The position numbers were made by a program, and so were the translations under genes. Shown here one piece after another: positions 23,477 through 27,864 of a stretch of DNA of 64,000 nucleotides. This stretch comes from Halothece sp. PCC 7418 (lineage in GTDB: Bacteria > Cyanobacteriota > Cyanobacteriia > Cyanobacteriales > Rubidibacteraceae): contig NC_019779.1 of the NCBI RefSeq assembly GCF_000317635.1, forward strand, positions 1,240,001 to 1,304,000. The letters are read 5' to 3'. Positions within the stretch are counted from its first letter, which is position 1, and every line of letters begins with the position of its first letter. The notes beneath the pieces are model-generated. The model saw only the letters and a program-made list of their open reading frames with translations, did no database searches and had not been told where the DNA came from.

Positions 23477-24418
23477 CTAGGACTGACTTTTCATGACAAC
23501 ATTACTCACAGAAGCTGCTTCAATAAAAATTCGTTTAATCTCAGTGTGAGACTCTCGAATTGCTGACTCAATGCGTCGTGTTGCCATTTCAATTTCATCA
23601 GAAGAGAGTTCATCTTTAAACTCAATATTCAGGGCGAGCATGATATCCCGAGGTCCTAAATGAAAGGTAATGGGTGAGTCGGCAGCAGAAACTGCTTCAT
23701 CCGATTGAACAATATTTTTAATGCTATTTCTCACTTCGGGAGACGCACTTTCTCCCACTAAGAGTCCTTTTGTTTCTGCCACTAAAATCATCGCAACGAC
23801 CGTCAGCAGAATCCCAATAATAATCGATGCAATGCCATCGTAAATGGGATTTTGTGTTACCTCACTGAGAAAAACGCCAAAGAAAGCTAAAATCAGTCCG
23901 ACAAGGGCAGCAAAATCTTCAACAATGACAATAAATGCACTGGGATCTTTACTTTCACGAATCGCCTTCCACAGTCCAACCTCTTGATTTCTCGGATAAT
24001 TCTGATTGAATTCTTTAATAGAAATAAATAAGGCAGTCCCCTCAAAAATTGCAGCAATTCCAAGAACAATATAACTGACAATCGGAGAAGTTGAGGACTC
24101 GGAATGTTGGAAGCTATTCAATCCTTCATAAACGGAAACACCACCGCCCAAGGCAAAGATTAAGACCGCGACTACTAACGACCAAAAATAAATTTCTTGA
24201 CTGTGACCCAAGGGATGTTCTTCATCAGCAACTCGTTCACTTTGTTTAAGGCCGTAAAGGAGTAAAATTTCATTAGTGGAGTCAACAACAGAGTGAATTC
24301 CCTCTGATAACATAGCAGAACTCCCACTAATTGTTGCACCAACAAATTTCGCTATTCCAATGGCGATGTTGGCTGCCATTGCAGCATAAATAGACGTTTT
24401 TGATGATTCAGATGTCAT
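23477..24418 (-). CDS. cation diffusion facilitator (CDF) family transporter
   Basis: A 313-residue inner-membrane cation/proton antiporter with about six membrane segments and a C-terminal cytoplasmic domain. The transmembrane metal site is seen in MLSEGIHSVVDSTNEILLL (HxxxD) and in VIVEDFAALVGLILAFFG. It belongs to the SLC30A9-like branch by overall layout. The substrate is probably Zn2+ or another divalent metal. It is divergent from the zinc-type ATPase across the decayed repressor gene, so the two may form a metal-homeostasis locus. Confidence 0.85.
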   Translation of the reverse strand: MTSESSKTSIYAAMAANIAIGIAKFVGATISGSSAMLSEGIHSVVDSTNEILLLYGLKQSERVADEEHPLGHSQEIYFWSLVVAVLIFALGGGVSVYEGLNSFQHSESSTSPIVSYIVLGIAAIFEGTALFISIKEFNQNYPRNQEVGLWKAIRESKDPSAFIVIVEDFAALVGLILAFFGVFLSEVTQNPIYDGIASIIIGILLTVVAMILVAETKGLLVGESASPEVRNSIKNIVQSDEAVSAADSPITFHLGPRDIMLALNIEFKDELSSDEIEMATRRIESAIRESHTEIKRIFIEAASVSNVVMKSQS

Positions 24419-24469: not shown

Positions 24470-24717
24470 ATGATACCCCCCAATTCTGATCAGAAAAACA
24501 TTTCTGAGTCTTCTCAAGCTCCCACTTGTGAAGACATTTAGATCAGGTGCGACAAGTACAACCTGAACTTCTCCGTCGTCAAGGACGCAATATCTACTAT
24601 AGTCTTGCTGATGATCATGTCATGACCCTTGATCGGGAAGTTGCTCAACATCTTGATGAAGAAGACCTTAAGGTAATTTTAATTGACAGAGTGGCTTTTG
24701 TTTTTTTTAATATCTGA
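24470..24717 (+). pseudogene. decayed ArsR/SmtB-family zinc repressor (ziaR-like)
   Basis: An ATG at 24470 opens a 23-codon frame ending SQAPTCEDI-stop. In another frame the sequence continues HLDQVRQVQPE and then jumps directly to LLRRQGRNIYYSLADDHVM and REVAQHLDEEDL. These blocks match the N-terminal and C-terminal parts of ZiaR/SmtB-type repressors. The whole helix-turn-helix region (about 65 residues) and a couple of bases near 24539 are missing. So this is a frameshifted, internally deleted regulator, read directly from the sequence, with family assignment from memory of ZiaR. Confidence 0.75.
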
Positions 24718-24731
24718 AGTATCATTCAGAT
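24712..24731. promoter_or_regulatory. SmtB/ZiaR-type operator in front of the zinc ATPase
   Basis: ATCTGAA (24712-24718) and TTCAGAT (24725-24731) form a perfect inverted repeat with a 6-bp spacer. The TGAA-N6-TTCA core is that of SmtB/ZiaR operators. It lies 16 bp before the ATPase start codon and overlaps the end of the decayed repressor gene. Confidence 0.65.
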
Positions 24732-24747: not shown

Positions 24748-26691
24748 ATGGGAGAAAATTGTTGTGCTTGCGCTCATGATCATGACTCCAACCCAAGTCA
24801 AACCCATGGTCAAACGGAATTTAACTGGAAAAAGGAACTGACTCCGATCGCGCTGTCTGGAGTCTTATTTTTAATCGGTTTAATTTTTTACGACCCCCTC
24901 CATAACACCCCTTACCATATTGCTGAGTCTGCTGTCTTACTTCCAGCTTATGTCATCAGTGGTTGGACAGTGCTGAGTGGTGCGGGACGTAATATTCTGA
25001 AAGGAGAAATTTTTGATGAAAACTTTTTAATGACCCTTGCTACCCTCAGCGCGATCGCGATTCACAAAATGCCTGAAGCAGTGGCAGTGATGCTATTTTT
25101 CCAAGTGGGAGAATTATTCCAAGGGTATGCCGTGGGAAAATCCCGTCGCTCGATTCAATCCGTGCTCGAAGTGCGCCCCAATAGCGCCAATCTCAAAACT
25201 GAGGAAGGGGTGACAACCGTTTCTCCAGATCGTGTTGAGGTTGGGGCATTAATCGTCGTGCGTGCTGGGGAAAAAGTGCCTTTAGATGGAGAAATTCTGG
25301 AAGGAAACTCCCAACTCGACACCTCGGCCCTCACGGGCGAATCCATTCCACAAATTGTTCAAGCAGGGGATGAGATTCTAGCGGGGTCAATTAATCAGGC
25401 TGGGGTTTTAACGGTGCAGGTAACGAAACCCTTTGCTGACTCCTCAATTTCTAAAATTCTCGATTTGGTGGAGAATGCTAACAGTAAAAAAGCAGAAACC
25501 GAGAAATTGATCACCACCTTTTCTCGTTACTATACTCCAGTGGTTGTTTTCTTATCCCTTGCTGTTGCATTTCTTCCCCCTCTGTTTGTCAGCAGCGCAA
25601 CCCAAGCGGAATGGACTTATCGCGCCTTAGTTTTACTGGTCATTTCTTGTCCGTGCGGTTTAGTGATTAGTGTGCCCTTAGGTTATTTTGGCGGTGTAGG
25701 AAATGCAGCGAAAAACGGCATTTTAGTCAAAGGGGCAACCTTTTTAGATGCTCTCACGCAAGTGCAAGCGGTTGTCTTTGATAAAACGGGGACATTAACC
25801 AAAGGAAACTTCCGAGTAACAGAGATTGTGACCCATAATGGTTTCAGTCAACCAGAATTGCTAGAATTAGCAGCAACAGTCGAATCCCACTCTAATCATC
25901 CTGTGGCGCAGTCAATTCGAGAAGCATATAATCAGAAAATTGATGATTCTACCCTGCAAAACTATCAAGAAGTTTCAGGACATGGCATTATTGCAGAAGT
26001 GAACCAGCAAGTGGTTGTGGTGGGAAATGATCGCCTACTGCATCGAGAAAAGATTCCCCATCAAACAGAGGTTTGCCATCTGGAAGGGACGATCGCGCAT
26101 ACAGCAGTCAACGGGGAATATCGTGGACACATTATTATTGCTGATGAATTGAAAGAGGATGCAGTCGAAGCGATTGCTAGCCTGAGAGGAAAAGGAATTG
26201 AAGTGGTGATGCTCACAGGAGATAATGCAACGGTGGCTCAAAGCATTGCCCAACAATTAGGGGTGGATCAGTATCAAGCGGACTTATTGCCAGAAGATAA
26301 AGTCACCGCCGTTGAAGATATTTTAGGACAAGTTCGGACTCAGAAGAGAAAAGTTGCCTTTGTTGGGGATGGGATTAATGATGCTCCTGTGATTGCCCGT
26401 GCGGATGTGGGGATGGCCATGGGCGGTTTAGGATCGGATGCTGCGATTGAAACCGCAGATGTGGTGATTATGACTGATGCTCCTTCTAAAGTATCACAGG
26501 TTATCGCGATCGCGCAGAAAACCCGTCAAATTATCTGGCAGAATATTGGCTTTGCTTTAGGGATTAAAGGATTATTTATTCTTTTCGGTGCGATGGGGTT
26601 AGCATCCCTCTGGGAAGCCATTTTTGCTGATGTCGGTGTGGCGTTAATTGCAATTTTCAATGCTGGTCGAATTTTAAGATTTAAGGCTTAA
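24748..26691 (+). CDS. heavy-metal P1B-type ATPase (Zn2+/Cd2+/Co2+ class, ZiaA-like)
   Basis: A 647-residue metal-exporting ATPase. The N terminus is a short Cys/His patch (ENCCACAHDHD) instead of a full HMA domain. Transport and catalytic motifs: TGES actuator loop (SALTGESIP), membrane metal site SCPCGLVISVPLG (CPC), phosphorylation DKTGTLTKG (Asp about 345), HP in SHSNHPVA, and GDGINDAPV. The C-terminal membrane pair has DVGVALIAIFNAGRIL, in line with the zinc/cadmium class. Regulation was probably by the upstream ziaR-like gene, now broken; a canonical operator still precedes it. Confidence 0.9.
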   Translation: MGENCCACAHDHDSNPSQTHGQTEFNWKKELTPIALSGVLFLIGLIFYDPLHNTPYHIAESAVLLPAYVISGWTVLSGAGRNILKGEIFDENFLMTLATLSAIAIHKMPEAVAVMLFFQVGELFQGYAVGKSRRSIQSVLEVRPNSANLKTEEGVTTVSPDRVEVGALIVVRAGEKVPLDGEILEGNSQLDTSALTGESIPQIVQAGDEILAGSINQAGVLTVQVTKPFADSSISKILDLVENANSKKAETEKLITTFSRYYTPVVVFLSLAVAFLPPLFVSSATQAEWTYRALVLLVISCPCGLVISVPLGYFGGVGNAAKNGILVKGATFLDALTQVQAVVFDKTGTLTKGNFRVTEIVTHNGFSQPELLELAATVESHSNHPVAQSIREAYNQKIDDSTLQNYQEVSGHGIIAEVNQQVVVVGNDRLLHREKIPHQTEVCHLEGTIAHTAVNGEYRGHIIIADELKEDAVEAIASLRGKGIEVVMLTGDNATVAQSIAQQLGVDQYQADLLPEDKVTAVEDILGQVRTQKRKVAFVGDGINDAPVIARADVGMAMGGLGSDAAIETADVVIMTDAPSKVSQVIAIAQKTRQIIWQNIGFALGIKGLFILFGAMGLASLWEAIFADVGVALIAIFNAGRILRFKA

Positions 26692-26856: not shown

Positions 26857-26928
26857 GCGGGTATAGTTCAGTGGTAGAACGTCACCTTCCCAAGGTGAAT
26901 GCCAGGGGTTCGAGTCCCCTTACCCGCT
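26857..26928 (+). tRNA. tRNA-Gly (anticodon CCC)
   Basis: A complete 72-nt cloverleaf without encoded CCA. Acceptor stem GCGGGTA/TACCCGC, D arm GTTC/GAAC, anticodon stem TCACC/GGTGA with loop TTCCCAA (anticodon CCC), T arm AGGGG/CCCCT with TTCGAGT loop, discriminator T. It marks the left edge of the accessory island. Confidence 0.95.
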
Positions 26929-27062: not shown

Positions 27063-27425
27063 GTGCTAGAAAAATGGTATCTAATTCTTAGTGAGAATCA
27101 CCAGCGACGAGGTTACGGATCAACTGCTCTGAAATATCCCTTATCTGGATTGGTCATTTGTGCTGAGTGCCGAAGCACTTGTCATTCTCAATCTGCTGTG
27201 ATGAACTATCATCGGGCGAAACGTATGGGGATTCCTAGAGTTTACCGCTATTACTTCCAGTGTAAAAACTGGCGCGTAGGTCGGAGACCGAGCCGTAGGC
27301 ATCGCTCTTGTAGCCAAAAAAAAACAGTGCGCCAAGAAGATGTTGAAGCGATAGTAGTTGAAGCCCTTTCCAATCGAGCGAAAGAAGTCTCTCAAACGGT
27401 GGAAACGCCACAGGAAGAACCCCAA
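27063..27425 (+). pseudogene. remnant of a large serine recombinase (zinc-ribbon region)
   Basis: Reading from 27063, the protein has YPLSGLVICAECRSTCHSQS and, downstream, YYFQCKNWRVG and CSQKKTVRQEDVEAIVVEAL. That is the recombinase zinc beta-ribbon (Cys pairs) plus the start of the coiled-coil domain found in large serine integrases and cyanobacterial excisases. The catalytic N-terminal domain is missing, and the frame runs on only as a shadow of the EVE gene. Hence a truncated remnant of an integrated element beside tRNA-Gly. Confidence 0.7.
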
Positions 27426-27864
27426 ATATTTTCGAGTCCTAGAGGCAATCAGGGACTTTGAGCAAATATATTGGACGATCACTCGTTACGCCAAGGAGAT
27501 TGTTCCTGGGGACGGAGTATTGTTATGGGTTGCAGGTGAACACGCTGGAATTTATGCGATCGCAGAAGTGATTGAACCAGCCCAACATTTAACGGAGGAG
27601 CTAGATATTGGCTACTGGTTTGAGCGCACTCAGAATCGAGATGTTCCTCAATGTAAAATACGGTTTACGCGGAAGCTACTGGAGAAGCCTTTGTTGAAGG
27701 AAACACTCAAAGATGATTCGGTTTTACAAGATTTAGCGGTGATTCGCCAGCCGAATGCTACTAATTACAAGGTTACGCCAGAACAATGGCAACGGGTTTA
27801 TGAATTAAAAGGAAGCGCGATCGCGCAGCGCATTCCTGAAGTGGATAAATTGCAGAAAGTTTAA
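27358..27864 (+). CDS. EVE-domain protein with replaced N terminus
   Basis: EVE (PUA-like) domains bind modified bases and are common near restriction systems. The EVE core is clear from NPKYFRVLEAIRDFEQIYWT through GDGVLLWVAGEHAGIYAIAE to the C terminus. The first ~20 residues of the frame (MKPFPIERKKSLKRWKRHRK) are encoded by recombinase DNA in another frame. They replace the usual opening strand (xYWLF-type) of the domain. The gene may still be expressed, but the fold could be compromised. Confidence 0.7.
   Translation: MKPFPIERKKSLKRWKRHRKNPKYFRVLEAIRDFEQIYWTITRYAKEIVPGDGVLLWVAGEHAGIYAIAEVIEPAQHLTEELDIGYWFERTQNRDVPQCKIRFTRKLLEKPLLKETLKDDSVLQDLAVIRQPNATNYKVTPEQWQRVYELKGSAIAQRIPEVDKLQKV

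Follow-up and report, generated by a model that had tools for sequence, protein, structure and literature searches.

Halothece sp. PCC 7418 has retained an intact P1B-type ATPase gene and, at its promoter, an exact ZiaR/SmtB-type operator, while both sensors, ZiaR and SmtB, are reduced to relics. Judging from sequence, the exporter is likely derepressed, with ziaR a recent pseudogene and ziaA constitutively expressed. ArsR/SmtB proteins repress their targets until metal binds; with ziaR and smtB both wrecked, the pump is thus probably on permanently despite its intact operator.

The locus lies in a window of 64,000 nucleotides (C1:1240001-1304000; positions without prefix refer to this window) of a genome that forms one closed contig of 4,179,170 bases and is 100% complete (G000 in our sample). 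We read it as a ziaR-ziaA pair, which would comprise a zinc-sensing repressor, its operator, and a zinc-exporting P1B ATPase. With ziaR recently turned into a pseudogene and smtB reduced to a C-terminal fragment, RNA polymerase would be unblocked at the operator and ziaA would be transcribed constitutively.

Anatomy of the ziaR relic

Reading of the open frames and protein matching place a ziaR pseudogene at 24470-24666, which carries a frameshift and a separate in-frame loss of about 63 codons. Three pieces can be distinguished:

24470..24541, plus strand: N-terminal piece MIPPNSDQKNISESSQAPTCEDI followed by a stop; 23 codons, then the stop caused by the frameshift
24535..24573, plus strand: α1 piece HLDQVRQVQPELL, in a frame different from that of the N-terminal piece
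24574..24666, plus strand: C-terminal piece RRQGRNIYYSLADDHVMTLDREVAQHLDEED, the end of the wing and α5, with the zinc motif DxHx10HxxE kept

The frameshift is located between CED and HLDQ, and the relic occupies two frames instead of a single open reading frame. Further downstream, HLDQVRQVQPELL joins RRQGRNIYYSLADDHVMTLDREVAQHLDEED directly, both in the frame of 24535, and RRQGRNIYYSLADDHVMTLDREVAQHLDEED forms the protein end. Matched to the intact ZiaR of a genome of the same genus (G002, on L076), the pieces cover residues 1-22, 26-38, and 102-132, so that residues 39-101 (63 codons, in frame) are computed to be absent. This deleted segment holds the α3N motif ELCVCD, consequently missing from the relic, and the entire HTH. 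Its limits are taken from the protein matches, as aligning the relic with the intact gene at the DNA level (mafft) misplaced the N-terminal part. The C-terminal piece is 81% identical to G002 ZiaR over 31 aa (E 6e-13) and reaches E 7.5e-11 in the whole-genome search, where the HLDQ piece by itself gives E 9.7. No Pfam family, the winged helix-turn-helix family PF01022 included, matches the 60-aa relic frame at E values up to 1. The α5 zinc motif DxHx10HxxE, as defined in PMC8790569, is present as DDHVMTLDREVAQHLDE, and a GTG at 24547 starts a 56-codon frame within the relic. HIP1 (GCGATCGC) is absent between 24401 and 24800, so none lies at the deletion junction; the intact G002 ziaR has one HIP1 (L076:6272), inside the stretch deleted here. 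As the two lesions are separate, one reading error cannot account for both.

The destroyed ZiaR-type repressor, its frameshift, the internal deletion removing the HTH, and the perfect operator beside an intact ATPase had all been described in an earlier note, and each is borne out. The range given there (24470-24731) holds for the repressor pieces; beyond DEED, the frame simply continues across the promoter and operator of the ATPase, and this part is not repressor protein.

The exporter and its operator

The relic is flanked by two intact transporter genes:

23477..24418, minus strand: CDF cation-efflux protein, intact, divergent from the ziaR relic
24683..24688, plus strand: -35 element TTGACA of the ATPase promoter, a consensus match also found in L007, L008, and L009
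24708..24713, plus strand: -10 element TAATAT of the ATPase promoter, a consensus match that runs into the operator
24712..24731, plus strand: predicted ZiaR/SmtB-type operator ATCTGAA-N6-TTCAGAT, exact, starting within the -10 element
24748..26691, plus strand: ziaA-like P1B-type heavy-metal ATPase, 647 aa, intact, with a Cys/His-rich N-terminus

By family, the ATPase is a zinc-type P1B exporter, for which export is predicted. It scores 563 bits with TIGR01525 (cut-off 346) and 530 bits with TIGR01512 (cut-off 313.5), its matches to the ZntA models NF033775 and NF008262 stay under the respective cut-offs, and HMA is not among its Pfam matches. A dN/dS of 0.119 against the orthologue in G005, a genome of the same genus, indicates purifying selection. 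Just downstream lies a tRNA-Gly(ccc) gene (26857-26928), and past it, including 27063-27461, follow a recombinase-like fragment with a zinc ribbon, a gene resembling nucleotidyltransferases, and one for a type I restriction-like helicase; from the translations, this region is probably the remnant of an integrated element.

The promoter elements are consensus matches and as such predicted. They are the same in the sister genomes, but the spacer between them measures 19 bp here versus 17 in G005 and G002 and 18 in G001. It consists mostly of a T run (within 24683-24713) without obvious dyad. The longer spacer might hold the constitutive rate of ziaA transcription at a moderate level.

The core CTGAA-N6-TTCAG is exact at the ATPase promoter, and the full ATCTGAA-N6-TTCAGAT site is the sole copy in the genome; the three sites with one mismatch all fall inside long open frames. 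With up to three mismatches, the window contains 7 matches versus 6.5 expected, and with up to two, the genome contains 25 versus 17 for a reversed control pattern. As these looser counts lie near background, only the exact match is noteworthy. Its half-sites are perfect (14/14), while 5/6 spacer bases differ from G005. A TGAA-N6-TTCA site is absent from the 51-bp gap between the CDF gene and the ziaR relic. The search for RNA switches returned only the tRNA and one match below its gathering score, with no riboswitch family near the ATPase gene.

In relatives, this operator co-occurs with a full-length sensor. The ATPase search covered 60 genomes, 26 with a match; 18 were kept (at least 53% identity, G000 included) and 8, matching partially or at 35-51% identity, were dropped, as were second ATPase matches in G006, G009, G026, and G049. 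A full-length ZiaR/SmtB is encoded in 16/18 genomes. It is lacking in G000 and in G044, the latter a genome whose ATPase promoter holds no operator even at two mismatches. Across the sample, the CTGAA-N6-TTCAG core occurs at the ATPase promoter with at most one mismatch in 13/18 genomes and with at most two in 15/18, compared to 19/3600 and 350/3600 dinucleotide shuffles. Among the 13 genomes with at most one mismatch, 12 have a full-length ZiaR/SmtB and G000 is the sole exception. In a separate contig scan, none of the best 80 of 573 ATPase relatives listed is titled Halothece, and Halothece's own and near genomes may be missing from it.

Within the genus, four of the six genomes (G004 being 85% complete) contain the ATPase, namely G000, G001, G002, and G005, and all but G000 have an intact ZiaR or SmtB. 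G001 and G005 combine ATPase and operator with an intact SmtB elsewhere in the genome and no neighbouring ziaR; they would use this distant SmtB on the same operator. In G005, smtB and smtA are divergently oriented, and two operator-like sites, each with one mismatch, lie in the interval; a further SmtB fragment, N-terminal, converges with a hydrolase-like gene (L060). G002 encodes two ZiaR copies: an intact one close to the end of a contig, and one with a shortened N-terminus (L042), which lies beside another P-type ATPase that is itself split into two overlapping frames in L074. Thus, ZiaR and SmtB appear to replace each other over one shared operator, and G000, which would have lost the SmtB backup as well, appears to be the end state. 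G003 (L072) keeps smtA without SmtB, and its best operator within 200 bases upstream has three mismatches; unlike the G000 operator, a site read by nothing may have decayed there.

Remaining sensors and the timing of the losses

Searches with the PF01022 family, with a single protein, and with a profile found no intact ZiaR/SmtB in the closed genome, and one further relic. The candidates are:

C1:2799825-2799935 (L073:9326-9436), minus strand: smtB relic, last 37 codons, near a tRNA-Val gene
C1:2793449-2793787: CadC-like α3N repressor (L002), the closest remaining relative of ZiaR, with CadC as nearest solved structure

The smtB relic lies about 1.5 Mb from the ziaR relic. It is identical to the SmtB of G005 in 36/37 residues, its N-terminus is gone, and no additional SmtB sequence was found ahead of it. 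The exact α5 zinc motif DxHx10HxxE is kept, and an ATG opens a frame of 36 codons in this relic. A search for the smtA metallothionein family gave no match in G000. PF01022 itself finds five places, none of which, by reading of sequence and neighbours, is a ZiaR/SmtB. On this reading four are ArsR-type: an arsenic-type ArsR, the CadC-like L002, a BigR/SqrR-like protein adjoining a gene of sulfide:quinone-reductase type, and one more ArsR-type protein. The fifth is SufR-like. Scores with the specific NCBIfam models stay below the cut-offs. The ZiaR/SmtB profile has five matches in G000, the top one among the best three listed being L002 with 92 bits; in the 16 relatives that encode a ZiaR/SmtB, the best scores among the matches listed range from 170 to 235 bits. 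The earlier note had expected a second SmtB-type regulator in trans; the genome search found none intact, and smtB itself is a fragment.

Both relics still bear a coding signature. The C-terminal piece of ziaR yields a dN/dS of 0.065 against G002 (12 synonymous and 6 non-synonymous changes, 31 codons) and the smtB relic 0.038 against G005 (6 and 1, 37 codons), small counts that include both branches. These low ratios point to late loss, suggesting that both sensors disappeared recently, although the counts cannot date the events. Compared with G011 over 28 codons, the ziaR relic shows 6 non-synonymous changes and the intact G002 gene 4. Moreover, Y121 is changed to D and V108 to I, two columns in which all 11 intact proteins agree, which fits lifted constraint. 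Half-sites that are unchanged while 5/6 spacer bases differ imply either that the loss is recent or that the site is still read.

Against derepression, the perfect half-sites beside a changed spacer could indeed mean that a protein reads them, and L002 is the closest candidate: it would regulate the exporter in trans via the kept operator, with export following Cd/Pb/Zn through its thiol site. L002 carries ELCVCD and N-terminal cysteines, and in the alignment its recognition helix has SHQLR-LR in common with that of ZiaR. AztR, likewise an α3N sensor, acts on a TGAA-N6-TTCA-type operator in Anabaena, as far as described in PMC8790569. However, L002, of the CadC/AztR type by sequence, stands beside sites of its own. 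Like its G002 and G005 orthologues it lies upstream of a CDF gene, and between the two genes are two TTCAAA-N6-TTTGAA-type sites; in G002 each of the two has one mismatch, and in G000 and G005 a single site has one, the other being exact. We infer from their place and conservation, examined without a shuffle control, that L002 binds these sites. The best SmtB-type site in its operon has 3/10 mismatches; conversely, the best TTCAAA-N6-TTTGAA-type site at the ATPase promoter has 4/12, so none is present there, and the window contains 7 CadC-type matches versus 13.9 expected, none at the ATPase. The sites, as predicted from sequence, therefore argue against L002 being the regulator sought. L002 and its sites also coexist with ZiaR or SmtB in G002 and G005, and hence L002 is no replacement there. 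Overall, control by L002 seems rather unlikely. A regulator of another class (Zur, a MerR protein, or a CsoR/InrS-type protein) would have taken over the ATPase in a further reading that we regard as improbable. The genome contains 3 Fur-type, 9 MerR-type, and 1 CsoR-type matches, and MerR-activated promoters typically have 19-bp spacers, but here the T run without an obvious dyad argues against such activation. Using what we take to be the Zur box consensus, boxes with up to three mismatches number 9 in the window versus 5.4 expected, none of them between the CDF gene and the ATPase, where the best has five mismatches. A precedent for Zur is given by Synechococcus WH8102, in which it controls zinc uptake and activates a metallothionein gene (PMC9337993).

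The remaining alternatives concern the relics themselves. Sequencing or assembly error, with an intact repressor in the living strain, gains some plausibility from the single-base errors that finished genomes do contain, and the CDF gene beside L002 (L073:3421-4053) shows a one-base frame change compared with G002 and G005. In contrast, a 63-codon in-frame loss, a frameshift, and a truncated smtB need several independent errors, and the ziaR relic is also altered at two invariant columns. Given one closed contig, two lesions, and a broken sensor about 1.5 Mb away, assembly collapse at the ziaR locus is unlikely, and we consider error of any kind very improbable. Even less credence is due to the shortened frames being expressed and functional, as a C-terminal α5 zinc-binding mini-protein without DNA-binding domain. 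Both relics keep the exact zinc motif, and start codons are available for frames of 56 (ziaR) and 36 codons (smtB). Yet neither shortened form occurs in the other five genus genomes among the matches listed, the ziaR frame continues through the ATPase promoter, and the invariant Y121 is changed to D. That both remnants, α5 with its four zinc ligands, are made as peptides buffering zinc or pairing with ArsR-type proteins is accordingly scarcely credible.

Precedents and meaning

Derepression by loss of both sensors, the reading we prefer, can be set beside several known systems. In a Synechococcus PCC 6301 line, a deletion reportedly removes part of smtB. This cadmium-tolerant line, with a metallothionein-locus deletion involving HIP1 (Gupta et al, 1993; as presented in PMC6331805), is the nearest precedent for an internal deletion affecting an SmtB-type repressor in a cyanobacterium. 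The Halothece case differs in that its deletion junction is free of HIP1, the repressor's target is an ATPase gene, ziaR bears a frameshift in addition to the deletion, and SmtB is lost along with ZiaR. The ziaR-ziaA pair of Synechocystis PCC 6803 (Thelwell et al, 1998; via PMC4235346 and PMC8790569) likewise places a ZiaR-type repressor beside a P1B zinc ATPase, but there the genes are divergent, whereas the Halothece ziaR lies upstream in the same direction and is a pseudogene. In Synechococcus PCC 7002, deletion of smtB derepresses its target, although the loss is engineered: one gene, smtA, was strongly raised, with wild-type-like growth (PMC4628125). The argument of the earlier note that constitutive export would be costly carries little force beside this wild-type-like growth, though the target there is smtA and not an exporter. 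SmtB is also absent from true marine Synechococcus strains, WH8102 among them; there, Zur governs uptake and metallothionein, and marine genomes lean to uptake and storage over efflux (passages of PMC9337993).

Our literature search, judged mostly from listings, returned no report of a ziaR pseudogene or of zinc sensors in Halothece, and the main text of the Halothece PCC 7418 transcriptome paper (PMC9374696) mentions neither zinc nor a P-type ATPase. Loss of a repressor is already familiar from metal resistance in cyanobacteria; the natural loss of both sensors in one genome that kept operator and pump is a modest new example. Here a bacterium has apparently shed, in nature, the two sensors that hold zinc export off, and has held on to pump and operator. 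Should export be constitutive, Halothece would allow a direct test of what unregulated zinc efflux costs a phototroph, and its genome offers a sensor-free host in which to measure operator function.
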